Shown: positions 2,739-36,352 of the stretch, in pieces | How positions within the stretch are numbered: position 1 is the first letter of the stretch | How the letters are laid out: each line of letters begins with the position of its first letter | Assembly: GCF_000336875.1 (NCBI RefSeq) | Contig: NZ_AOJK01000077.1 | Location: forward strand, 1,555-38,670 | Direction: 5' to 3' | DNA length: 37,116 nucleotides | DNA from: Halorubrum californiense DSM 19288 | GTDB lineage: Archaea > Halobacteriota > Halobacteria > Halobacteriales > Haloferacaceae | Position numbers and translations under genes: made by a program | Notes under the pieces: generated by a model | Told to the model about the DNA's origin: nothing | What the model saw: the letters and a program-made list of their open reading frames with translations, nothing else | Database searches by the model: none

Positions 2739-4664
2739 ATGACTACAGATTCAATCTCGAACAGCGATAGCTATGACGAACCGACTGATTCTCCGAACAG
2801 GGTTACTACCAACGAAGCGCGTGATCGTCTCGAAGAGACGCTATTCTCGGCGCTCCAAGCCGGAGAGAATACGCTCATCGATGCGCCGACTTCGGTCGGT
2901 AAGACCTACCAAATTGCGACGACACGATGGCGTGACTATCCCGAAATCACAGGCGGTGAGCCGGTCATCCATATCCACCAGACGAAGAAGGCGAGGGAGG
3001 ACGCTGTCGAAAAAAGTCGGGAGGAACCCGGTGTGGAATATCGCGTGCTACGTGGTCGGACTGATGCGTGTCCTGTAGCCGCAGGAAACTGCGATGGCGA
3101 GTTGACCGCTCCAAACGGTCGCACTCCCTCGAAGTGGTTCGACTGGATGTGTAACGTGCGTAATATCACATTCCAGAAAGCTCACCACCAATTGGCGCGA
3201 CATTGCGATCTACCCTGCGGAGAGGATTGCGACGCTGTCACTCAATGGTGGGGACTTTCAGACAGCGACGATGAACCGGGTTACGACGTACTACATACGA
3301 CGTCGAATTTCGCTCACGTTGACGACCTCATTGAGGGGGCGAATGTGGTCTTCGATGAACGTCCGGAGTTTGGGTTCTCATTCAAAAGCGACGAAAGAGA
3401 GCAGTTTCAGCAGGCGACGACCAACCTACTTGATCATCGTTCCGATGTAACCCGTGCGATGATTGATCTCAAGAACGCCGCTGTTCGTGATCATCCTGAA
3501 TTGAAAGGAGAGCTAAGAGAACACTTCGAAGACGAGGTCAGTAAGGAGTGGCTATTCCGACGTGAAGAAACCCACCGATTGGCTCCCGCTATCGGGCGTG
3601 CTATCCTCAGTTCGCAGGAAGTCTGCGCAGAACGCTACCATGGACGAGACGGCCGCATTGAGGTTGTGCTGGAAGGAGTAAGCGGTGAGATTCGACATAT
3701 CCAGCATACTCCAGACCTTTCCCAAGCCCGCTGTGTCATCGGCCTTGATGCGTTCCCCTCAGAGACCCGGTGGGAGATCAACACCGTTGACAACCTCTCA
3801 CGAGCGGCAGTGTTGCCTCTCGCCGACCGTAATTGGTGGCGACGAAACGAGCGAGGGCTGGAAATCAAGCAACTCGGAGAGGCAACTCGGTCATATACGC
3901 AGGGTTGGGGAGAGGGTGCCGGCGAAACACGAGGAGAAGCGGTTATCCAGAAAATACGGCAACTACACGGCGAGGCATTCCGTTCGTGTATCTCTCCAAG
4001 TAGTGTTGAACAGGACGTTCGACAGATGATGGCTGACGCAGGTATCGAGAAGCCGAAGACGATGCACTACGGTGAACAGAAAAGTCGCAACGACTTCTCG
4101 AACGAGGAGATCGGGTTGCTCGTTGGATGTATCGATCCCGGTGACGAAAATATTCTTGATCTGCTTGCCCTCCGCGAAATGGACGCAAAACCAAGACGAA
4201 TGATAACGGAGTCAGGACAACGAAAACGAGCGACCGGTCGTGACTTCGTTGGCCCAGACGCAGAGGTAGCAAGAGAGATTCTGGCTTCAGTCCGGGAGAA
4301 TAATCTCGCACAAGCCGCGGGGAGATACGCACGAAATCCTGACGATCCTGACTCCGGAGCTACTGTATATGTGTGGTCGGACGCACTTCCGAGGATGCTC
4401 GTTGATGAGGAGATCAGGACAAAGTACCGTTCAGCTACCGGCAAGCAAGCAGGGTTCGTACAAGTACTGGAGAACTCGTCAGGATGTACTGCGAAGCGGA
4501 TCGCTACTGAGACAGACAGCAACAAGTCCTACGTTATTAATTGGCTCAATAAGATGGAGGGGCAGAACAATGTCACGAAGTCTGTGGGAACTGGGCATCA
4601 GGGAGCGACTGAGTGGGAGTGGTGTGGTGGAGACTTCGAGAGATGTGTGATGTTCAATCCCTGA
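2739..4664 (+). CDS. SF2 helicase-like protein with XPD-like cysteine set and C-terminal HTH
   Basis: This 641-residue protein is the largest in the element and probably its replication protein. Walker A is DAPTSVGKT (48-56). The Walker B/DEAH equivalent is VVFDERPEF (204-211, core D206-E207), and motif VI is QAAGRYAR (525-532). Between Walker A and B lie six cysteines (C111, C118, C138, C156, C160, C164). They are followed by HTTSNFAHVDDLIEGA in the place where XPD/Rad3 helicases have their NH motif, so an Fe-S cluster is likely by analogy. Residues about 570-615 (SGCTAKRIATETDSNKSYV) look like a winged helix. The core D-E-R-P instead of D-E-A-H is unusual. A CGCATTGAG iteron copy lies inside the gene at 3654-3662. 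Function is inferred from motifs only. Confidence 0.7.
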   Translation: MTTDSISNSDSYDEPTDSPNRVTTNEARDRLEETLFSALQAGENTLIDAPTSVGKTYQIATTRWRDYPEITGGEPVIHIHQTKKAREDAVEKSREEPGVEYRVLRGRTDACPVAAGNCDGELTAPNGRTPSKWFDWMCNVRNITFQKAHHQLARHCDLPCGEDCDAVTQWWGLSDSDDEPGYDVLHTTSNFAHVDDLIEGANVVFDERPEFGFSFKSDEREQFQQATTNLLDHRSDVTRAMIDLKNAAVRDHPELKGELREHFEDEVSKEWLFRREETHRLAPAIGRAILSSQEVCAERYHGRDGRIEVVLEGVSGEIRHIQHTPDLSQARCVIGLDAFPSETRWEINTVDNLSRAAVLPLADRNWWRRNERGLEIKQLGEATRSYTQGWGEGAGETRGEAVIQKIRQLHGEAFRSCISPSSVEQDVRQMMADAGIEKPKTMHYGEQKSRNDFSNEEIGLLVGCIDPGDENILDLLALREMDAKPRRMITESGQRKRATGRDFVGPDAEVAREILASVRENNLAQAAGRYARNPDDPDSGATVYVWSDALPRMLVDEEIRTKYRSATGKQAGFVQVLENSSGCTAKRIATETDSNKSYVINWLNKMEGQNNVTKSVGTGHQGATEWEWCGGDFERCVMFNP

Positions 4665-4752
4665 AGTCATTGGGTTCACCACATAAGGAACCATATGTGA
4701 CCTACCCAACGACCTTCGGAATTATCGATTGAGGAGTAGGAACGCATTGAGT

Positions 4753-6925: not shown

Positions 6926-7097
6926 GCAGGGGCTTACTGACGCATCTCGTCGTTTCCGGGGGACATAATTGAACCTTTCGTTTCGGGGTTCGGGACGGGG
7001 CGCGTGACCGCCCCTCGATCGGGCGACGGCAGGCCTCCGAAGTCGACGGCGCGACGGTTTTCGACCGTTTTTACCCGCTCGCCGACAGTCCGTGCGT

Positions 7098-8228
7098 ATG
7101 GTCGACCTTGACGCTCGCACGGAGCGGCTCGACGCGTACCTCGACGAGCGCGGGCTCGAAGCGGTCTGGTTCGCGCGCCCCAACGGGTTCGCGTGGCTCA
7201 CCGGCGGCGACAACGTCGTCGACGCCGACGCGACGACGGGCGTCGCGGCCGCCGGCTACGACGGCGAACTCCGTGTGATAACCGACAACATCGAGGCGGA
7301 CCGGCTCGCCGACGAGGAGCTCCCGGACGGGTTCGCGGTCGAGTCGTTCCCGTGGCACGCCGACTCGCTCGCGGAGGCGGTCGCCGAGCGCTCGCTCGCC
7401 CCCGCGGCCGCGGACTTCGACGTGGCCGGCTTCGAGAGCGTCGACGGGAGCCGGCTCAGGCAGCCGCTCACCGACGACGACGTCGAGCGGTACCGCGAGC
7501 TGGGCCGCGAGGTCGCGGCCGCCGTCGAGACCGTCTGCCGGAATCTCGAACCGGAGGACCCCGAGTACGAGGTCGCGGCCGGCATCGACATCTCGCTGGC
7601 CTCCCGCGACGTGGACACGCCGGTCGTCCTTGTCGGCGGCGCGGAGCGGGCACAGGCGTTCCGCCACTACACGCCGAGCGACGCCGCCCTCGGCGACTAC
7701 GCGCTCGTGTCGGTCACCGCCGAGCGCGCGGGGCTGTACGCCTCAATGACGCGCACCGTCGCGTTCGACGCCCCGGACTGGTTCGAGGAGCGCCACCGCG
7801 CCGCGGCGCGCGTCGAGGCGACCGCAGTCCGGGCCACGGAGGCCGCCGCGGCCGGGACGCTCTCCGGCGAGGGTACCAATGACGCTCCCGACACGGCCGG
7901 CGACGTCTTCGCGGCCATTCAAGACGCGTACGACGCGGTCGGCTTCGCCGACGAGTGGGAGGAACACCACCAAGGCGGGGCCGCCGGGTTCGCGGGTCGG
8001 GAGTGGTTCGCGACCCCGGACGGCGACGAGCCGGTCCGACGACCGATGGGGTACGCGTGGAATCCCACGGTTCGAGGGACGAAAAGCGAGGACACGCACC
8101 TCGTCACGTCCGACCTGACCGAACGGCTCACGAAGACGGGACGGTGGCCGACTCACGAGGTCGAACCGGTGGACCTCCCGGGGATCCAGACCGAGCCCGT
8201 CGATCTGGCGGCGCCGGTGATCCGGTAA
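7098..8228 (+). CDS. M24 (Xaa-Pro peptidase-like) family protein lacking key metal ligands
   Basis: The 376-residue product has the two-domain layout of creatinase/aminopeptidase P-type M24 proteins: an N-terminal alpha/beta domain (1-125) and a C-terminal pita-bread domain. In active members the second domain supplies two aspartates (in DxG...SDxTRT), one histidine and two glutamates. Here the matching stretch (199-223) reads GDYALVSVTAERAGLYASM followed by TRTVAF, so both aspartates are replaced (S205 and S216). HHQGG (290-294) may stand at the histidine position, and E331 in GTKSEDTHLVT fits the last glutamate. It may be a non-hydrolytic homologue or bind metal differently. The ATG at 7098 is preferred over GTG 7092 because TTTTTACC lies about 28 nt upstream. 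Confidence 0.75.
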   Translation: MVDLDARTERLDAYLDERGLEAVWFARPNGFAWLTGGDNVVDADATTGVAAAGYDGELRVITDNIEADRLADEELPDGFAVESFPWHADSLAEAVAERSLAPAAADFDVAGFESVDGSRLRQPLTDDDVERYRELGREVAAAVETVCRNLEPEDPEYEVAAGIDISLASRDVDTPVVLVGGAERAQAFRHYTPSDAALGDYALVSVTAERAGLYASMTRTVAFDAPDWFEERHRAAARVEATAVRATEAAAAGTLSGEGTNDAPDTAGDVFAAIQDAYDAVGFADEWEEHHQGGAAGFAGREWFATPDGDEPVRRPMGYAWNPTVRGTKSEDTHLVTSDLTERLTKTGRWPTHEVEPVDLPGIQTEPVDLAAPVIR

Positions 8229-8276
8229 CGGGGTCCCTCCCGTCAGTAGCGCGCAGAATCCCGCTCGAACGCCGCG

Positions 8277-9665
8277 TCAGTACACGTACTCGCTCTCGTC
8301 GATGCCGACGTAGTCCTTCTTCACTCGCCGCTTGTTCCACTTGTAGCCGAGCAGTAGCTTCGCCGACTCCCAGCCGGAGCGGTACGGCTGCGAGAGCAGG
8401 TTCCCGCCCGCCTCGGCGTCGAGCATCGCGTCGGCCGCGCCGATGATCCGGTTCCAGTCGGCCGGCTCGTAGTCGGCGACCATGTCCGCCATCGTCACGT
8501 TGCGGACGAGTTCGTCGCCGATCGCCTCCTTCCAGCGGCGATTGTACGCGGCCAGATCGCCCTCGGCGGCGAGTTCCCCGGCGATCGCGCCGGTGCGGAC
8601 CGCGACGTGGTCGCCGCCCTCGTGGAACGCCGAGGTCGTCCCCATCGCGCCGCCCGCGACCGCAATGCCGGCGTCCACCGGCGAGTCGATCGGCCGGGTC
8701 GACGAGATGGGGTACGTCTCCGTCCCGTTCCGCTTCCCGGCGTCCTCGACGACCGGGAACTCCTCATCGATGTCGTACTCGTCGCCGTACTGCCACTCCA
8801 GCAGTCGGCGGATGTACTCGCCGCCCTGCGGGATCGACTCGTCGTCCTCGCGGAGGAGGGCGTACTCGGACGCGTCCACCTCGCCGATGTCGAGGCCGAT
8901 CGGCATCGTCAGCCCGACCCGGCAGACGCGGTCCGCGTTCGGGAAGACCCACGGATACGCCGTCTCGCCGGGCATCACGCCCCACCAGAAGACGATGGCG
9001 TCGTTCACGTCCTCGAACACCTCCTCTGGAACGCGCCGGTACTCCTGGTAGGCGATGTGGTTCGCGGTGCGGGAGGCCAGCCGCTCGGAGGCCTGCGCGT
9101 CCGCGGGCAGGTACTCGTCGAGGACGCGGTTCGTCACGGTGCGCTGGGGACCGTCGGCGAGCACGACGAAGTCGGTGCCGACGGTGCCGCCGTCCGCGAG
9201 TTCGAGCGTGTGACGCGGGTCGTCGTCGCCGGGCGCCGCCGAGAGATCGGTGTCCACGCCCCGGACCGAGGTGCCGACGCGGTACTCGGCGCCGGCGTCC
9301 TCGGCGCGGTCGCGGAGCCAGTCGTCGAAGCGCGCGCGCTGGAAGGTGTACCCGAACTTGTCGTACGAGGAGTCGATGCCGGTCGAGGTGAGCGTCGCCG
9401 ACTCCTCGGGCCCACGGAACTCCGCGCGGTTCAGTTCCCGCTGGACGACCCCGTCGTCGAACTCGTCAGGGTGGATCCCCATGATGTCCACCCAGTAGTC
9501 CAAGATCCCGGCCGCGTCGGTCGAGTCCGGACCGAGGCGGTCGCGGTCGGCCCGGGGGACGCCCTTCTCGAGGACCAGCGCCTCCGCGCCGTCGGTCGCG
9601 GCCGCGTGCGCCGCGGACGATCCGGCCGGCCCGCCGCCCACGATCGCGACGTCTACGCGTTCCAT
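8277..9665 (-). CDS. FAD-dependent oxidoreductase, geranylgeranyl-reductase/FixC family
   Basis: The 462-residue protein starts with a Rossmann dinucleotide-binding loop, VDVAIVGGGPAGSSAAHAA (GxGxxG at G10-G12-G15), and a basic stretch after ALVLEKG. It has a second FAD motif, VVLADGP, near residue 175 and the third, VAGGAMGTTSAFHEGG, near residue 345. This order is characteristic of the geranylgeranyl reductase/FixC flavoproteins. In haloarchaea such proteins saturate isoprenoid chains of lipids or quinones, or act in electron transfer. The exact substrate cannot be assigned. It is convergent with the M24 gene (48-bp gap) and divergent from the transporter gene. An AATTTAATAG box about 28 nt before the ATG supports the start. 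Confidence 0.85.
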   Translation of the reverse strand: MERVDVAIVGGGPAGSSAAHAAATDGAEALVLEKGVPRADRDRLGPDSTDAAGILDYWVDIMGIHPDEFDDGVVQRELNRAEFRGPEESATLTSTGIDSSYDKFGYTFQRARFDDWLRDRAEDAGAEYRVGTSVRGVDTDLSAAPGDDDPRHTLELADGGTVGTDFVVLADGPQRTVTNRVLDEYLPADAQASERLASRTANHIAYQEYRRVPEEVFEDVNDAIVFWWGVMPGETAYPWVFPNADRVCRVGLTMPIGLDIGEVDASEYALLREDDESIPQGGEYIRRLLEWQYGDEYDIDEEFPVVEDAGKRNGTETYPISSTRPIDSPVDAGIAVAGGAMGTTSAFHEGGDHVAVRTGAIAGELAAEGDLAAYNRRWKEAIGDELVRNVTMADMVADYEPADWNRIIGAADAMLDAEAGGNLLSQPYRSGWESAKLLLGYKWNKRRVKKDYVGIDESEYVY

Positions 9666-30150: not shown

Positions 30151-30804
30151 CTACGACAGCCGGAGGTCGGACACGTCGTCGTCGTCCAGATCGCCGTCGA
30201 GGTCGTCGAAAACCGCCTCGGGGTCGAGCGACTCGTCCTCCGTCGTCCGCTCTCGTTCGAACTCGGCGTCCCACTCGTCGCGGAGCTGCGAGTTGCCGTG
30301 AAGGCGGTCGGTCGACGCCGAGAAGGAGTCGACCACGTCGCGGGCGGCGACGCCGGCGGTGTCGAGCCGCTGGGTCATCTCCTCGATGGTCAGCTTCTCT
30401 TGCGAGAACATCTCGACCAGCTCTTCGCGGTCGAGTTCCATGAGACGCTCCCAGTACCGGTCGTCGCGGAGCTCTCGCATCTCGTAGACGTTGAGGAAGT
30501 TAGACACCGTCTGGGACATCTGATCCACGACGTCGAGTTTCCCCTCGACCGTTTCGAGGCGGTCGTTGACGGCCTCGGCCTCGCGGAGGGCGGTCTCCGC
30601 CGCGTCCTCGTTTCCCGCCTCGCGGGCGTCCATGTACTGCTGTTTCAGGTTCTCGTGTTTCTCCTTGAGTCGGTCGCGGTCGGTCGCGAGCTGCTCGCGT
30701 TTCGCGTCGAGTTCGACCTGCTTATCGCGGTGTTCGGACTCGTCGAGTTCGAGCGGATGAGTCGTGTCGTCGCCGAAGAGGAGCGTCGAGATTCGATCGA
30801 TCAT
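30151..30804 (-). CDS. Coiled-coil protein, ESCRT-III/Snf7-like candidate 1
   Basis: The 217-residue protein is almost entirely helical. A short hydrophobic N-terminus (MIDRISTLLFG) leads into a long charged coiled coil (about 25-95: ELDAKREQLATDRDRLKEKH). Shorter helices (100-165) and an acidic tail ending DDDVSDLRLS follow. Size, N-terminal amphipathic piece, helical hairpin and acidic tail match ESCRT-III (CHMP/Snf7) subunits, and residues 99-161 align by eye with residues 90-152 of the paralogue at 32815. PspA/Vipp1, from the same superfamily, is the main alternative. It lies 41 bp downstream of the Vps4-like ATPase gene in the same direction, so the two are probably co-transcribed. ATG 30804 is preferred to the much longer frame, which overlaps the ATPase gene. 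Confidence 0.55.
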   Translation of the reverse strand: MIDRISTLLFGDDTTHPLELDESEHRDKQVELDAKREQLATDRDRLKEKHENLKQQYMDAREAGNEDAAETALREAEAVNDRLETVEGKLDVVDQMSQTVSNFLNVYEMRELRDDRYWERLMELDREELVEMFSQEKLTIEEMTQRLDTAGVAARDVVDSFSASTDRLHGNSQLRDEWDAEFERERTTEDESLDPEAVFDDLDGDLDDDDVSDLRLS

Positions 30805-30845
30805 GTGGATACGAACGTGGGGGGAATTTGTAGTTGTTGGGTGTG

Positions 30846-32174
30846 TTACTGCTCGATTCGAGCCGACGGACCCGTGCCGTACTGCGCGTTCCACTCGTCG
30901 TACTCGGATATCTCCGCCGCCGACAGCGACGCGCTCGTCTGATCGAACGCCGTCTCCACGTCCTCCGGCGTGATGGCGTCGATCGTGAGATCGTAATCGC
31001 GGGCTCCGCCGAGCCCGCTGTCCGCGACGGAGACGAGGTCGGGATTCGACCGACGCACCATCGCGTCCACCGAGCGTCGACACAGCGCCTCGATATCGCT
31101 CCCGGTGAACTGTCGCTCCACGCAGGCGGCGGCGATCGCGGTCGCGGGCGAGGCGGCGCCCGCCGCGTCGACCCCGCTCGGGGCGAACGCCGTCGGCCGC
31201 GAGTCGGCGAACTCGACCCCGCCGCGAACGCTGTGGATCCGGACGACCTCCTCGGCGGCGTCGACGTCCGGCAGCGGGATGAGAAGCCGCTCGGGGAAGC
31301 GTCGCCGAACCGCGTTGTCGAGGTCGGCCGGTTTATTCGTCGCGCCGAGGACCATCACGAAGTCGTCTTCCCCTTTATCGATCCCGTCCAGTTCCGACAG
31401 GAGCGTGTTCAGCACCCGCCGAGACGTCTGGTCGGAGTTGTCGTCGCGCGACTGCGTCAGCGCGTCGATTTCGTCGAGAAACACGACCGACGGACTCATC
31501 TCCGCCGCGAGGTCGAACAGCGCGGTGATCTGTTTCGACGACTCTCCGAAGTACTTCGACAGGAGGCCGCCCAGCTTCACGTCGAAGAACGTCGCATCGA
31601 GCGACCCAGCGACCGCCGACGCCAACAGCGTCTTTCCGGTCCCCGGGGGCCCGAACATGAGGACCCGGTCGGTCGCGGCGACCGCCGAGGGAGTCCCTTC
31701 GACCGCACCGAGCGCGATCGCTCGCTTCAGCCGGTCTTGGACCGATTCCAGGCCGCCGATATCATCCCAGGTCACGTCGGTCTCCGAGACGAACGACTCG
31801 ACGCGGCCCTTGAAGTCCTCGTCGTCTCCGGAACCGCCCGAACCGCCGCCTGCGCCACCCCTGCCGCCCGAACCGCCGCCCGCGCCACCCCTGCCGCCCG
31901 ACCCACCCGCGCCGGCGCTCCCGCCGTCGTCGTCCGCCGCACCGGGATCGGTGCCGTCGGCGGCCATCGAGGCCGCACGCAGCAGCCGCTCGATGCGGCC
32001 GCTGTAGTCGCTGTTCGCCTCGACGTCTTGGAGCTGTTCGAGCCGATCGGCGGCCTCGTGGTACCCCTTCGCGGCGGCGTCGAGGTTCCCGGCCTTCCTC
32101 GCCGTCTCGGCCTTCGAAAGCAACTCTTCGTACTGGTTCCTGAGGATGTCGCGTTTGTATCCGTCTACGTTCAT
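30846..32174 (-). CDS. Vps4-like AAA ATPase with N-terminal MIT-like domain
   Basis: The 442-residue protein has an N-terminal helical domain (about 5-70) resembling the MIT domain of Vps4: YEELLSKAETARKAGNLDAA, then GYHEAADRLEQL. A Gly-rich linker (about 85-116) precedes one AAA domain. Motifs are WDDIGGLESVQDRLKRAI, Walker A GPPGTGKT (175-182), pore loop SKYFGES (206-212), Walker B VFLDEID (231-237), sensor GATNKPADLD and arginine fingers in AVRRRFPERLLIPLPD. The C-terminal SLSAAEISEYDEWNAQYG (417-433) is the closing helix of the Vps4/katanin/spastin clade. Vps4 disassembles ESCRT-III filaments through the MIT domain. It sits between two coiled-coil genes that could be its substrates. Other AAA clades are less likely because of the C-terminal helix. 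Confidence 0.82.
   Translation of the reverse strand: MNVDGYKRDILRNQYEELLSKAETARKAGNLDAAAKGYHEAADRLEQLQDVEANSDYSGRIERLLRAASMAADGTDPGAADDDGGSAGAGGSGGRGGAGGGSGGRGGAGGGSGGSGDDEDFKGRVESFVSETDVTWDDIGGLESVQDRLKRAIALGAVEGTPSAVAATDRVLMFGPPGTGKTLLASAVAGSLDATFFDVKLGGLLSKYFGESSKQITALFDLAAEMSPSVVFLDEIDALTQSRDDNSDQTSRRVLNTLLSELDGIDKGEDDFVMVLGATNKPADLDNAVRRRFPERLLIPLPDVDAAEEVVRIHSVRGGVEFADSRPTAFAPSGVDAAGAASPATAIAAACVERQFTGSDIEALCRRSVDAMVRRSNPDLVSVADSGLGGARDYDLTIDAITPEDVETAFDQTSASLSAAEISEYDEWNAQYGTGPSARIEQ
31841..31900. repeat. 30-bp tandem duplication in the ATPase linker
   Basis: 31841-31870 and 31871-31900 are identical except for one base. They encode repeated Gly-Ser-Gly-Gly-Arg-Gly-Gly-Ala-type decapeptides of the linker, likely to vary in copy number by slippage. 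Confidence 0.8.
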
Positions 32175-32253
32175 GGGGTTTGGTGGTGAGTTCGGTCGGG
32201 AAATCGTCTCGATGCCGTCGGTGCCGTGCGGTCGCGTTCGTTCCGCCGCCGGG

Positions 32254-32697
32254 TCATGCGGCCTCGTCCGTTTCGGGACCGTACACGGCCGCGACGACGC
32301 CGTCGGCGACGGTTTCGAGTTCGACCGCGCTCTCGTCGGGCAGTTCCTCTTCGGCGGCGCACACGACGGCCTGTCGGAGCAGTCTGCGGTCGCTCTCGGA
32401 GACCGTCGGGCTGTCGGCACGGAACTCCGGGCCGGACGCGAACTCGAGCGTTCGAGTGAGCACGTACTGGAAGAGCAGCGAGCGGTACTCGTGTCGCGTC
32501 CGCTCGTAGCGACGCAGGAGCGACTCCCGTTCGCGGGAGCGGTCGTCTCCGCTCGGCGTCGCCGGGTTCGCCGTCGTCCGGGACTGCCGGTCGTACTCCC
32601 GGTCCAGCCGTTCGAGGGGCTCGATCCGGTCGACCAGCTCCTCTCGGAGCAGCTCGCGTGCGCCTTCGAAGTCGAGTGTGTTCCGCTGTCGGGTCAT
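32254..32697 (-). CDS. Small helical protein of unknown function in the ESCRT-like cluster
   Basis: The 147-residue protein is predicted largely helical and charged, with EGARELLREELVDRIEPLER near the start and RYERTRHEYRSLLFQYVLTR in the middle. A compact C-terminal part follows (RRLLRQAVVCAAEEELPDES). It contains no transmembrane helix or known catalytic motif. It lies between the coiled-coil gene (117 bp upstream) and the ATPase gene (79 bp downstream), all leftward, which suggests a joint role. I do not recognise the family. Confidence 0.55.
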   Translation of the reverse strand: MTRQRNTLDFEGARELLREELVDRIEPLERLDREYDRQSRTTANPATPSGDDRSRERESLLRRYERTRHEYRSLLFQYVLTRTLEFASGPEFRADSPTVSESDRRLLRQAVVCAAEEELPDESAVELETVADGVVAAVYGPETDEAA

Positions 32698-32814
32698 GAT
32701 CGGTGTGATTTGAGTGATCGAGCGGCGCGGACCGAACGGCCGGCGCGTCCGGCTGACCGAGGCGCGTCCCGTCTGACCGGGGCGGCGGAGCGGTCCCGTC
32801 GCTGTCGTCGCCGG

Positions 32815-33423
32815 CTACATGTCGCTAAGCGAGAACGACGACTCGTCGATGTCGTCCTCGCTGACCTTGTCTGCCAGCGAGAAGTCGCTCACGTCGTTCC
32901 CCTGCTCGAACGCCTGGATGACGTCCTCGACGTCGTCGTCGACTTGGCCGCCGCCCGAGCCGGTCACGGCGGTCAGCGTCTCGTCGATCGTGTTCGCGAC
33001 CTCCTCCATCTGGGCGAGTTCCTGGTTCTGTCCCAGCACGTCGCGCTTGACGTCCTCGCGGAACGACTGTAGCTGCTCTTGATCCATCTCGCGCAGCATC
33101 GAGTCGCTCCGGGAGTTCAGGCGACTCTTCGCGTTAGCCAGCGTCTGGATCGTGGTGAACTCCTTGAGCATGGCTTGGTACTCGGCCTGCTGCTGCTCGT
33201 AGTTCTGCTTGATCGCGGAGGCCTCGCTCTTCAGCCGGTTCCGCTTGGGGCCGGCCGCGTCCGCCGCCTCCTTCGCCTTGCTCAGGAACTTCTGGTCGAG
33301 GCGGTTGAGGTCGTTCTCCTTGACCTTCATGTCGGTCTTGATACTCTCGGCCTCGAGGTCGAGGTCGTTTTTCGAGTACGCGTCGAGTCCGCTCGGGTCG
33401 TCGCTTCTGAACCAGTCGAACAT
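32815..33423 (-). CDS. Coiled-coil protein, ESCRT-III/Snf7-like candidate 2
   Basis: The 202-residue protein opens with the amphipathic MFDWFRSDDP. A long helical hairpin spans about 22-90 (SIKTDMKVKENDLNRLDQKF; SEASAIKQNYEQQQAEYQAM), then helices at 90-155 (SMLREMDQEQLQSFREDVKR; ELAQMEEVANTIDETLTAV), a GSGGG break and an acidic tail. The tail contains DVSDFSL (177-183) and DESSFSL (193-199). This is the layout of ESCRT-III subunits: basic helical core, hinge and acidic tail with MIT-interacting motifs. The tail motif recurs in the second coiled-coil protein. It is the first gene of the leftward set and starts beside the divergent regulatory region. No database search has been run. Confidence 0.6.
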   Translation of the reverse strand: MFDWFRSDDPSGLDAYSKNDLDLEAESIKTDMKVKENDLNRLDQKFLSKAKEAADAAGPKRNRLKSEASAIKQNYEQQQAEYQAMLKEFTTIQTLANAKSRLNSRSDSMLREMDQEQLQSFREDVKRDVLGQNQELAQMEEVANTIDETLTAVTGSGGGQVDDDVEDVIQAFEQGNDVSDFSLADKVSEDDIDESSFSLSDM

Positions 33424-33545
33424 GATGTCGTGTTTGTGTCAGCGTACGGTCTCTTAGTGTTTCCGCCGGCCCCACCTCGCACGTCCAGCCTCGACCGGGG
33501 ATGCTTCACGAGTCAACAATGTAGCTCATGTGTTAAATAACTTTC

Positions 33546-33560
33546 TCTCCAAACTGGAGA
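33546..33560. promoter_or_regulatory. Dyad TCTCCA-AAC-TGGAGA, operator candidate 1
   Basis: Perfect 6-bp arms separated by 3 nt, in the divergent intergenic region. It matches a second copy at 33635-33649. Confidence 0.65.
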
Positions 33561-33602
33561 CTACTTTTGCGTAGCCTGTCGGACACGAAATCTGCCATAC
33601 GT

Positions 33603-33614
33603 CCGCTATAGCGG
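33603..33614. promoter_or_regulatory. Perfect palindrome CCGCTATAGCGG
   Basis: A 12-bp uninterrupted palindrome between the two dyads; its TATA core could also overlap a promoter. Confidence 0.5.
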
Positions 33615-33634
33615 GAGTGTGCGACATATCTGTG

Positions 33635-33649
33635 TCTCCATAATGGAAA
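33635..33649. promoter_or_regulatory. Dyad TCTCCA-TAA-TGGAAA, operator candidate 2
   Basis: Same architecture and 11 of 12 arm bases as 33546-33560, centred 89 bp away. Confidence 0.65.
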
Positions 33650-33743
33650 AGCATATGTGTGCGAACGGCCAATCGAAACCGAGTGAGTCCAGATGACCCG
33701 CTGCTCGGGGCGCGAGTAATGAGCGTACCGGTGGTGACGACCG

Positions 33744-34250
33744 GTGACCGCTGACGACACCTACCTCGTCGTCGTCGATTACGAGGCGGACACCGAGCGG
33801 AAGCGCGCGGAGTACCTCCTCGACAACTGGGACGAGGGCAGCGTCGAGTCGGTTCGCGGACTGACTCGACTGGTCTCTGGGACCGACATTCACGAGCTGT
33901 ACGACGCGCTCGCCGCCAAGGTCCCCGAAGACCAGATCGAGACGTACGATCTCACGCCCGTGAACAGCGAGGCCAGCACCAGCGACGAGCGGCTCGACAT
34001 CAGGACCCAGACGGATCCCGAGCGGGTGGAGTGGGCCGTCGAGTCGGTGCTCAACAAGCGCAAGGCCGTCGAGGACCCCGAGCAAGACGACACCTACGCG
34101 GTGTACACGAAGAAGGGGCGAGCCACGGTCCGGTACGACGTCGTCCCGCGAGACGACGGATCGACCCTGGAGATCCGGATCGAGGGGTACGGCGAGGCGA
34201 CCGAGTTCCTTCGCGACTTCTTCGAGGAGGAGCTCGGGTACATGCTGTGA
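33744..34250 (+). CDS. 168-residue alpha/beta protein of unknown function
   Basis: The GTG-initiated protein seems to have two small alpha/beta domains. The N-terminal half follows a beta-alpha-beta-alpha-beta order (TYLVVVDYEADTER, KRAEYLLDNW, GSVESVRGLTRLVSG, DIHELYDALAAKVPE, QIETYDL), reminiscent of a ferredoxin-like or Cas2/VapD-type fold; this resemblance is weak and by eye. The C-terminal half reads YAVYTKKGRATVRYDVVPRD and ends in FLRDFFEEELGYML. It is the first rightward gene, 48 bp upstream of the large coiled-coil gene, and diverges from the ESCRT-like set. No catalytic residues are identifiable. Confidence 0.6.
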   Translation: MTADDTYLVVVDYEADTERKRAEYLLDNWDEGSVESVRGLTRLVSGTDIHELYDALAAKVPEDQIETYDLTPVNSEASTSDERLDIRTQTDPERVEWAVESVLNKRKAVEDPEQDDTYAVYTKKGRATVRYDVVPRDDGSTLEIRIEGYGEATEFLRDFFEEELGYML

Positions 34251-34297
34251 CGGACGGAGAACGCGACTGACACATCTCGACAACACGAGGCGATACG

Positions 34298-36352
34298 ATG
34301 GGATTCCACGACGAACTTGACGACGTTCTCAGACCGGCGAACCGCGTGCTCGACGGCGACCTCGTCGACTTGGAGCGGATGTCTCCGACGCGCCGAGAAC
34401 GGCTCTACGAAGAGATCCGCGAGAGCGAGGAGCGGTTCGAATCTGAACTGCTCCGGGAGTACCGACGGAAACTGGACGACGTGACCACGAGCGAGGTGCG
34501 GTCTCAGCTCGTGACGGCGCGGCTGTTCCTCCACGTCGCGTCGCATCGAGACGACCGCGGCGACGTCATCGATCCGAACGCCTTCGAGGAGGACGAACGG
34601 CGGGCGGTCGTCGAGTTCGATCGGTACCGCGCGTTCGACGTGTCGAGTACGGAGGACCTCCAGCGACGGATCCGCGAGAAGGACGACGATGTCTACGAGT
34701 TCGTGGTCGAAGAAGTCACCTCGCAGACGGACGACCGGAGTTCCGTGCTTGAGGGGCGAGACAACCGGATCCGGACCGCGGTCATGGACTACCTCAACGA
34801 CCGCTATCAGGAGCGGATCGATCGCTCCGAGGAGGCCGTCTCGCTGTACATCCAGCACCACGGCCTCCCGAACGTCATCGAGGGGATCGAGAACGCCGTC
34901 GAGGCGACCGCCGAAGGGGCCGAACGACGACAGGAGGTCGAGGAGGCGGTCCGGACGCAGCTCGACGACCTCTCGGAGCGGATACACGCGTCGCTGCGCG
35001 ACCAAGAGCGCGCCATCAGGGGGGACATCGCCGGCATTCAGGGGGAGGTCGCCGCGATGGAGGGCGACAAAGGCGCCGCGGTCGACACCGAGAGGCTGGA
35101 GTCTAAGCTCGACGAGGTCGCGACCGAGGTCGAGGCGGTCCGCGAGGAGCGCCGGGCCGACGTGGCGGCGCTCGACGAGGCAATCGACGGCCTCGCCGAC
35201 AAGCGGGAGACCCTCGACGACGCCTTGGAAGAGCTCACCGAGGCCGGTCGGGAGGCGACCAGGCGGGCGGCCGACGAGGCGGCCGAGGGCGTCGCCGACG
35301 ACGCGGAAGAGATCGTCTCACAGGAGCTACAACGGCTCCGGGACCGCCGGGAGGAGCTCGACGGCGAACTCTCTCGGCTCTCGCGCGAGCGAGAACGGCT
35401 CGAAGCCGCGGGGGACCGGCTCGAAACGGAACACGAGGTGCTGTCGGAGCGCGTCGACCGCGTCTCCGCGTCCCTGCCCGCCGAGTCGGACGCCGACGCG
35501 GGAGGCGACGGCGTGGTACCGGCCCGGATCGCCCGGCTGTACGAGGTCGACTTCGTCTCCCGGTTCGACGAGTCGGTCCGAGAGGCGCACTCGATCACGC
35601 TGCCGAGCGGCGAGGCGTTCGAGCCGCCGTCGGAGTTCGCGCGTCGGGCACACGAGGCCGGCGACGAGCGCGAACGGATGGCGTCGCTGCTCGACGAGCA
35701 GGGTGCGAGCGACGACGTCGACGTCGACCACTATCCGCTGCGGCGACGCTCGCGCTACACGGTCGTCACGAGCAGCCGGTTCGGCCTCGTCAGGGACGCC
35801 GAACTGGTCATCGAAGCGACCGTTCACAGCAACCTCGAGGCGTACGCCATCAACGGCTTCGACGCGAGACCCGCCGGACTCGACGACCTCCTCGATGTCA
35901 TCAACCGCGTCACCGAACGAGCCAACACCCGCGGCGTTCCGCACCTGATCGCGGCCGCCTCCACGACCGGATGGACCGATCGGGTCCGCCGGTTGGTCAC
36001 CGAGTCGGAGTTCTCTCGAACCCGCCTCGGCACCGACGTGAGTCTCTGTCTCGTCGACGTGCGTACCGGTGAACTCTTCTACGACCGGAGCGACGACGTG
36101 GTTCACGCGAACCGCGAACTGTTCGAGCGGGCGGTACACGTCGAGCGCGTCGACGCCTGCGAGCGCCACATCCGCGAGGAGTACGTCGAGGACCCGATGA
36201 CCGACACCGTCCGGCTGAGCGCCGTGGCCTCGGAACTCGACGCCCCAGAACACGTCGTCGCGAGCGCGTTCGACCGGATCGAAGACGCCGGCGACGGCAG
36301 CCGAGGCTATCACGACGAACACGGCCCATACCTCGTCGCAAACGGCGGTTGA
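34298..36352 (+). CDS. 684-residue protein with central coiled coil and C-terminal winged helix
   Basis: Three regions can be seen. Residues 1-200 are helical and charged (MGFHDELDDVLRPANRVL start). Residues about 205-400 form a long coiled coil (EVEEAVRTQLDDLSERIHAS; QELQRLRDRREELDGELSRL). Residues 410-600 form an alpha/beta domain (RYTVVTSSRFGLVRDAELVI; GVPHLIAAASTTGWTDRVRR; VSLCLVDVRTGELFYDRS), followed by a probable winged helix (DTVRLSAVASELDAPEHVVA). No transmembrane segment is visible. The layout, long coiled coil plus ligand or nucleic-acid domain, suggests a scaffold or sensor. It is probably co-transcribed with the 168-residue protein gene 48 bp upstream. I do not recognise the family. 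Confidence 0.65.
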   Translation: MGFHDELDDVLRPANRVLDGDLVDLERMSPTRRERLYEEIRESEERFESELLREYRRKLDDVTTSEVRSQLVTARLFLHVASHRDDRGDVIDPNAFEEDERRAVVEFDRYRAFDVSSTEDLQRRIREKDDDVYEFVVEEVTSQTDDRSSVLEGRDNRIRTAVMDYLNDRYQERIDRSEEAVSLYIQHHGLPNVIEGIENAVEATAEGAERRQEVEEAVRTQLDDLSERIHASLRDQERAIRGDIAGIQGEVAAMEGDKGAAVDTERLESKLDEVATEVEAVREERRADVAALDEAIDGLADKRETLDDALEELTEAGREATRRAADEAAEGVADDAEEIVSQELQRLRDRREELDGELSRLSRERERLEAAGDRLETEHEVLSERVDRVSASLPAESDADAGGDGVVPARIARLYEVDFVSRFDESVREAHSITLPSGEAFEPPSEFARRAHEAGDERERMASLLDEQGASDDVDVDHYPLRRRSRYTVVTSSRFGLVRDAELVIEATVHSNLEAYAINGFDARPAGLDDLLDVINRVTERANTRGVPHLIAAASTTGWTDRVRRLVTESEFSRTRLGTDVSLCLVDVRTGELFYDRSDDVVHANRELFERAVHVERVDACERHIREEYVEDPMTDTVRLSAVASELDAPEHVVASAFDRIEDAGDGSRGYHDEHGPYLVANGG

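Follow-up and report, generated by a model that had tools for sequence, protein, structure and literature searches.

ESCRT systems, which remodel membranes, occur in haloarchaea that use FtsZ to divide, and one such locus in Halorubrum californiense DSM 19288 raises the question of whether its two divergent transcription units answer to a single regulator. The window analyzed here, a whole stretch of 37,116 nucleotides from contig NZ_AOJK01000077.1, contains a leftward ESCRT-III/Vps4 operon and a rightward operon, and the promoter region that separates them carries two similar dyads (Table 1). Both dyads are present as described in an earlier note on this DNA, with 89 bp between their centres. 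Our analysis suggests that they are operators of a single dimeric transcription factor that would be dedicated to the haloarchaeal ESCRT set and would most likely act as an activator, and we consider this reading highly probable; binding by one protein and its activating effect are both what we infer from conservation, specificity and promoter layout.

Table 1. Dyads, predicted promoter elements and genes of the ESCRT-type locus in the window
Feature	Position	Strand	Remarks
Dyad 1, TCTCCAAACTGGAGA	33546..33560	.	putative operator of leftward ESCRT-III/Vps4 operon
Dyad 2, TCTCCATAATGGAAA	33635..33649	.	putative operator of rightward arCOG08177-like/arCOG09748-like operon
TATA-like element TTATTTAA (predicted, ESCRT-III promoter)	33533..33540	-	5 nt past dyad 1; read from sequence
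Weak TATA-like element CATATGTGT (predicted)	33652..33660	+	adjoins dyad 2; most such promoters have a TATA-like element 2-8 nt past the dyad
Snf7/ESCRT-III-like protein, 217 aa	30151..30804	-	Pfam Snf7 E = 5.8e-4 (longer frame), under curated cut-off
Vps4/CdvC-like AAA ATPase, 442 aa	30846..32174	-	Pfam AAA 1.3e-38; conserved next to ESCRT-III-like genes
Small protein, 147 aa	32254..32697	-	weakly similar to ESCRT-III-like protein (26% identity, E = 2.9e-4)
ESCRT-III-like coiled-coil protein, 202 aa	32815..33423	-	first gene of leftward operon
arCOG08177-like protein, 168 aa	33744..34250	+	assignment from size, context and PMC10936438 rather than from a profile
arCOG09748-like protein, 684 aa	34298..36352	+	coiled coil and C-terminal winged helix

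Genes were called with a simple codon-score script. In the leftward operon, the 202-aa protein matches no Pfam family and is conserved beside Vps4-like genes, its homologs of 33-34% identity adjoining such genes in Halomicrobium, where a homolog of the 217-aa protein likewise sits beside ESCRT-III. The AAA ATPase has no Pfam MIT match, and NCBIfam CDC48 (2e-45) scored above CdvC (3e-39), all below cut-off; it is called Vps4-like on account of its ESCRT neighbours. In euryarchaeal ESCRT loci, arCOG08177 and arCOG09748 are constant partners, the former a small, two-domain protein with an inactivated Cas2-like N-terminus and a TBP-like/helix-grip C-terminus, the latter composed of a helical N-terminus, a coiled coil, a central domain and a C-terminal winged helix (Makarova et al. 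2024; PMC10936438). Neither rightward protein matches a Pfam family; size, order, domain layout and context, rather than profiles, argue strongly that the genes at 33744-36352 are these two partners. The arCOG08177-like protein has the expected size and position; its homologs occur in 15 loci, and viral contigs yielded no relatives of it. Its structure model is poor (pLDDT 56), with weak matches to Polyketide_cyc2 (helix-grip) in two homologs. The protein is otherwise acidic and halophilic, and the invariant basic residues of its ERKR and TKKG motifs are strictly conserved among the homologs, pointing to a polyanion ligand, which may be DNA, RNA or acidic lipid. For the arCOG09748-like protein, coiled-coil matches fall at profile positions of about 180-397, and the last 80 residues adopt a winged-helix topology (pLDDT about 80) with weak winged-helix fold matches; the model of its C-terminus is poor overall (pLDDT 55) and can be relied on only for the terminal winged helix.

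The locus resembles the Main and Halo_FHA clades of euryarchaeal ESCRT systems in its predicted Vps4-like ATPase and its predicted ESCRT-III-like, arCOG09748-like and arCOG08177-like proteins, and in the FHA-like, kinase and phosphatase genes of the neighbourhoods (PMC10936438). The association with Ser/Thr kinase and PP2C genes was found here as well: a kinase-like gene lies to the right of the window (in L074, on contig C77), kinases and PP2C are present in H. mukohataei, and the PP2C family occurs in eight loci. L074 also holds ThiF/E1-like (3362-4702), JAB-like protease (7074-7751) and apparent E2-like (7754-8293) genes, several kb past the ESCRT genes and accompanied by kinase-PQQ and HEAT-repeat genes; these may form a ubiquitin-like conjugation set neighbouring the ESCRT locus of a haloarchaeon. 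Within the E2-like frame, part of the sequence is undetermined and one segment is duplicated, which probably reflects an error of assembly. The cluster at 30151-36352 is patchy in its distribution, and its arCOG09748-like gene is plasmid-borne in Halomicrobium. Near the left end of the window, at 1465-2466, lies a tyrosine recombinase gene.

The dyad is palindromic over 15 bp, two 5-bp arms flanking a centre of 5 nt; its half-sites (TCTCCA) lie one helical turn apart, and the consensus is TCTCCA-WWW-TGGAGA. The host genome (3.68 Mb in 83 contigs) contains just four exact matches to TCTCCANNNTGGARA, two of them being dyads 1 and 2 and the other two intragenic, in a TadC/FlaJ-like and a mannosyl-3-phosphoglycerate-synthase-like reading frame, and a reversed control pattern has no match in this genome; thus, two copies within 89 bp of a single promoter region are well beyond chance, and homologous loci provided independent confirmation of this. 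A motif matrix built in this analysis and trained on other genera gave dyad 1 as its best match in the 37-kb window and also picked up dyad 2. The earlier note had also drawn attention to a perfect 12-bp palindrome between the dyads. This palindrome (CCGCTATAGCGG, 33603-33614) is indeed present, but it is not conserved, being absent from the near relative Halorubrum sp. GN11_10-6_MGM; a functional role for it was not supported, and it looks like a chance feature.

Both dyads are retained in this near relative. The arms of dyad 1 are kept while its centre differs (TCTCCGGATTGGAGA), the TATA block near it (GTTAAATAACTTTCTCTCC) and the block at dyad 2 (TCTCCATAATGGAAAAGCATATGTGT) are identical, and the DNA between the two dyad and TATA blocks has diverged. 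Relatives of the 684-aa protein were found in 20 of 391 haloarchaeal genomes, representing 12 genera, and the dyad recurs in the homologous divergent intergenic regions, usually twice, one for each promoter, as in L114 (TCTCCAATATGGAGA and TCTCCAAAATGGAGG, 84 bp apart), L116 (TCTCCATAATGGAGT and TCTCCAATATGGAAA, 104 bp) and L122 (TCTCCTTTTTGGAGA and CCTCCAGATTGGAGA, 110 bp). Seventeen such regions contain 16 sites with at most one mismatch, at least two sites being present in six regions; 300 sets of dinucleotide shuffles gave a mean of 0.24 sites and a maximum of two, with at most one region holding two. Orthologous clusters are thus not devoid of the dyad, which lies upstream of the ESCRT set in 11 genera of three families, a count in which related genomes are not independent of one another. 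Among loci with an arCOG08177-like gene, L068 has no standard dyad and L067 only a variant palindrome with a 6-nt spacer (TCTCC-N6-GGAGA; 7837-7852, genome G229), placed immediately before the start of the TM-protein gene, a position unlike that of standard dyads. The plasmid locus of Halarchaeum has no good dyad (top matrix score 12.6 bits).

The placement of the dyads relative to predicted TATA-like elements, which were read from the sequence, is regular. In all 11 representative promoters outside Halorubrum that belong to the ESCRT/TM-protein side, 28-29 nt separate the end of the dyad from a downstream TATA-like element (TTTAAGT, TTTATAT or the like); on the arCOG08177 side, the dyad ends about 2-8 nt before a predicted, usually weaker element. 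Halorubrum dyad 1 lies close to its element, in contrast to the 28-29 nt elsewhere on the ESCRT side; when it is counted with the arCOG08177-side sites, the offset is within 3 nt of the median of 4 nt in 8 of 10. Neither value was reached in any of 2000 shuffles. L117 (8317-8331) and L119 (11400-11414) carry a second, degenerate dyad, GCTCC-N5-GGGAGR when read toward the TM-protein gene, in a proximal position adjacent to the TATA-like element and 24 nt from the main dyad, which suggests tandem binding at the TM-protein promoter.

We propose that a homodimer would occupy each dyad, placing both divergent transcription units under one signal, and, less certainly, that its main effect would be activation through recruitment of TBP/TFB; activation is proposed because the TATA box follows the dyad at every site and is weak in most promoters of the arCOG08177 side. 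A dimeric activator that recruits these factors would be expected to use just such a site, palindromic over 15 bp, with its half-sites a turn apart and its distance upstream of TATA fixed. The dyads might instead be repressor sites that block access of TFB/TBP and keep the ESCRT set silent until it is induced, which we regard as possible though not probable. At the proximal sites, the dyad stops 2-8 nt short of the TATA-like element, which is the BRE position, and TrmB of P. furiosus offers a precedent for repression from a site at the BRE/TATA, but in ten genera the sites on the ESCRT/TM-protein side stop 28-29 nt short of TATA and would not directly block TFB, and the mostly weak TATA-like elements on the arCOG08177 side are what activator-dependent promoters would be expected to have. 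An intermediate arrangement is also possible at the TATA-adjoining sites, since the dyad overlaps the expected BRE position there: the arCOG08177 promoter may be autorepressed and the ESCRT side activated.

Activation from such sites has counterparts in known archaeal systems. GvpE, the haloarchaeal gas-vesicle activator, uses one element beside the BRE of each promoter of a divergent pair, at a distance from the BRE that is essential (PMC4390858). The ESCRT dyads resemble these elements (UAS-A/UAS-D) in being paired at two divergent promoters of one gene set and in the importance of distance to the promoter, and the arCOG08177-side sites and Halorubrum dyad 1 likewise stand directly beside the BRE/TATA; the gas-vesicle set, moreover, encodes its own activator. 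GvpE, however, uses two 8-nt elements with a 4-nt spacer that overlap between the promoters, whereas the element described here is a 15-bp palindrome in mostly separate copies 24-144 bp apart, with one class of sites 28-29 nt from TATA. Similarly, archaeal operators of the TrmB type activate from upstream of the BRE/TATA and repress from downstream of it, and those of the TrmB family read TACT-N3-AGTA, TATCAC-N5-GTGATA and TACT-N7-8-GAGTA (PMC4158304). A palindromic operator upstream of the BRE/TATA at activated promoters is common to both, but the TCTCCA half-site differs from TACT/AGTA and TATCAC/GTGATA, and TrmB operators serve sugar-metabolism regulons, unlike the ESCRT dyad, which is confined to one locus type. 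The study of euryarchaeal ESCRT systems covers proteins and neighbourhoods, and the terms 'promoter', 'operator' and 'palindrom' are absent from its text (PMC10936438). No published description of the ESCRT dyad was found in the literature searched; the kind of element is already known, and this instance appears to be undescribed.

The breadth of the regulon bears on whether the factor is dedicated to the ESCRT set. When matrices were trained with one genus left out, the top-ranking match in each of the 11 genera tested was an ESCRT-set promoter site, and all 28 matrix matches of at least 17 bits in 530 kb fall within promoters of the ESCRT gene set. In three ESCRT-bearing genomes (G037, G293 and G280), the single exact match per genome is the ESCRT promoter, and this result, together with the four matches in the host, shows that the dyad is not common outside promoters. 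In a class-wide search, the AT-centred form TCTCCAWWWTGGARA was matched in 19 of 391 genomes: in the seven with an arCOG09748-like gene, all seven matches are at the ESCRT locus, and in the other 12 the matches are mostly intragenic or in transposase debris, none lying beside ESCRT-type genes. Sampling of 46 Halorubrum genomes gave the same picture, the cluster and the AT-centred motif being present in the same two. Judged by these searches, the motif is private to the ESCRT locus type.

A general haloarchaeal regulator encoded elsewhere, with the ESCRT locus as one of many targets, seems unlikely to us. It would agree with the lack of a conserved stand-alone regulator gene in the loci, where the only families obtained by clustering the neighbourhood genes were ESCRT-III, Vps4, arCOG08177/09748, FHA, kinase, TM-protein, PP2C and a few minor ones, and with the presence of HVO_A0114-like helix-turn-helix proteins in all 19 genomes searched. 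Against it, no other recognizable promoter targets were found, three genomes each having a single exact match, at the ESCRT promoter itself, and the 44 sampled Halorubrum genomes that are without the cluster are also all without the AT-centred motif. A global regulon was accordingly left unsupported by the host, three-genome and class-wide searches, which yielded essentially no other promoter targets.

The three Halomicrobium genomes (G041, G059 and G114) provide the strongest evidence for a shared regulator, because there the motif goes with the genes and is not tied to a single intergenic region. The gene sets are split into three separate operons (in H. mukohataei, the locus is on plasmid pHmuk01), and each has its own dyad: before the ESCRT-III-like gene, in the gap between the small TM-protein gene and the divergent kinase gene, and before the arCOG08177-like gene. 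In H. mukohataei DSM 12286, the arCOG08177-like and arCOG09748-like proteins are HMUK_RS15890 and HMUK_RS15885. About 1.27 Mb separate the TM-protein/kinase dyad site from the ESCRT-III-Vps4 operon in G114, and the three sites before the arCOG08177-like gene were picked up by a matrix built without them. Thus, the proposal of the earlier note that one regulator controls both the ESCRT-like set and the genes at 33744-36352 is largely supported by sequence conservation, by specificity and by these separate operons, and neither of the two outcomes that the note gave as refuting it was observed.

Two further readings fare poorly. That the dyads are RNA hairpins, or a recombination or replication feature, rather than protein-binding promoter elements is very improbable: inverted repeats can form hairpins, and the cluster is patchy across genomes with a recombinase gene near the left end of the window, but each dyad precedes the predicted TATA box of its gene and is therefore outside the expected transcript, which tells against an RNA hairpin or a terminator, and the sites keep a fixed spacing to TATA and stand at operon heads, not at island ends. 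Chance occurrence of two dyads in one promoter region, with which the mild enrichment in a window-only search allowing up to two mismatches would agree, is practically negligible in view of the 11-genus conservation, the shuffle controls and the leave-one-out tests.

As to which protein would bind as the dedicated factor, the lack of other genomic targets and the travel of the motif with a patchy cluster make a cluster-encoded factor more likely than a global one. Dyads were found at 12 of 14 loci with an arCOG08177-like gene and at none of four arCOG09748-like loci without one, counting Halorubrum and Halomicrobium as one each (Fisher p = 0.005, phylogeny ignored); likewise, of the locus copies in G066, the one that includes the arCOG08177-like gene carries a dyad, unlike the one that lacks this gene. 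This restriction makes the arCOG08177-like protein, or a companion protein of the locus, a candidate for the factor. We tentatively suggest, with considerable doubt, that an ESCRT partner protein serves as transcription factor of its own operon: TCTCCAwwwTGGAGA would be bound by the arCOG08177-like protein (as a putative Cas2-like dimer) or by the winged helix of the arCOG09748-like protein, and the membrane machinery would thereby control its own expression according to its state; the basic residues of the arCOG08177-like protein could equally bind membrane lipids instead of DNA. In Halomicrobium, a Ser/Thr kinase with an N-terminal HVO_A0114-like helix-turn-helix (L070, 4854-6320; HMUK_RS15910 in H. 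mukohataei) is divergent from the small TM-protein gene and shares a dyad-bearing promoter region with it. This fusion was weighed as another possible factor; among the 19 genomes searched it was seen in Halomicrobium only, and its helix-turn-helix is related to small proteins in all 19, dyad-less ones included.

A private operator common to the ESCRT-III, small membrane protein and kinase operons and to the arCOG08177/09748 pair would mean that these genes are switched together. The dyad may serve as a DNA bait for finding the regulator and its signal, and the motif would help to spot members of the locus that are not adjacent to it. Knowing when the ESCRT set is on would make its role directly testable, whether in vesicles, protein sorting, membrane repair or defence.
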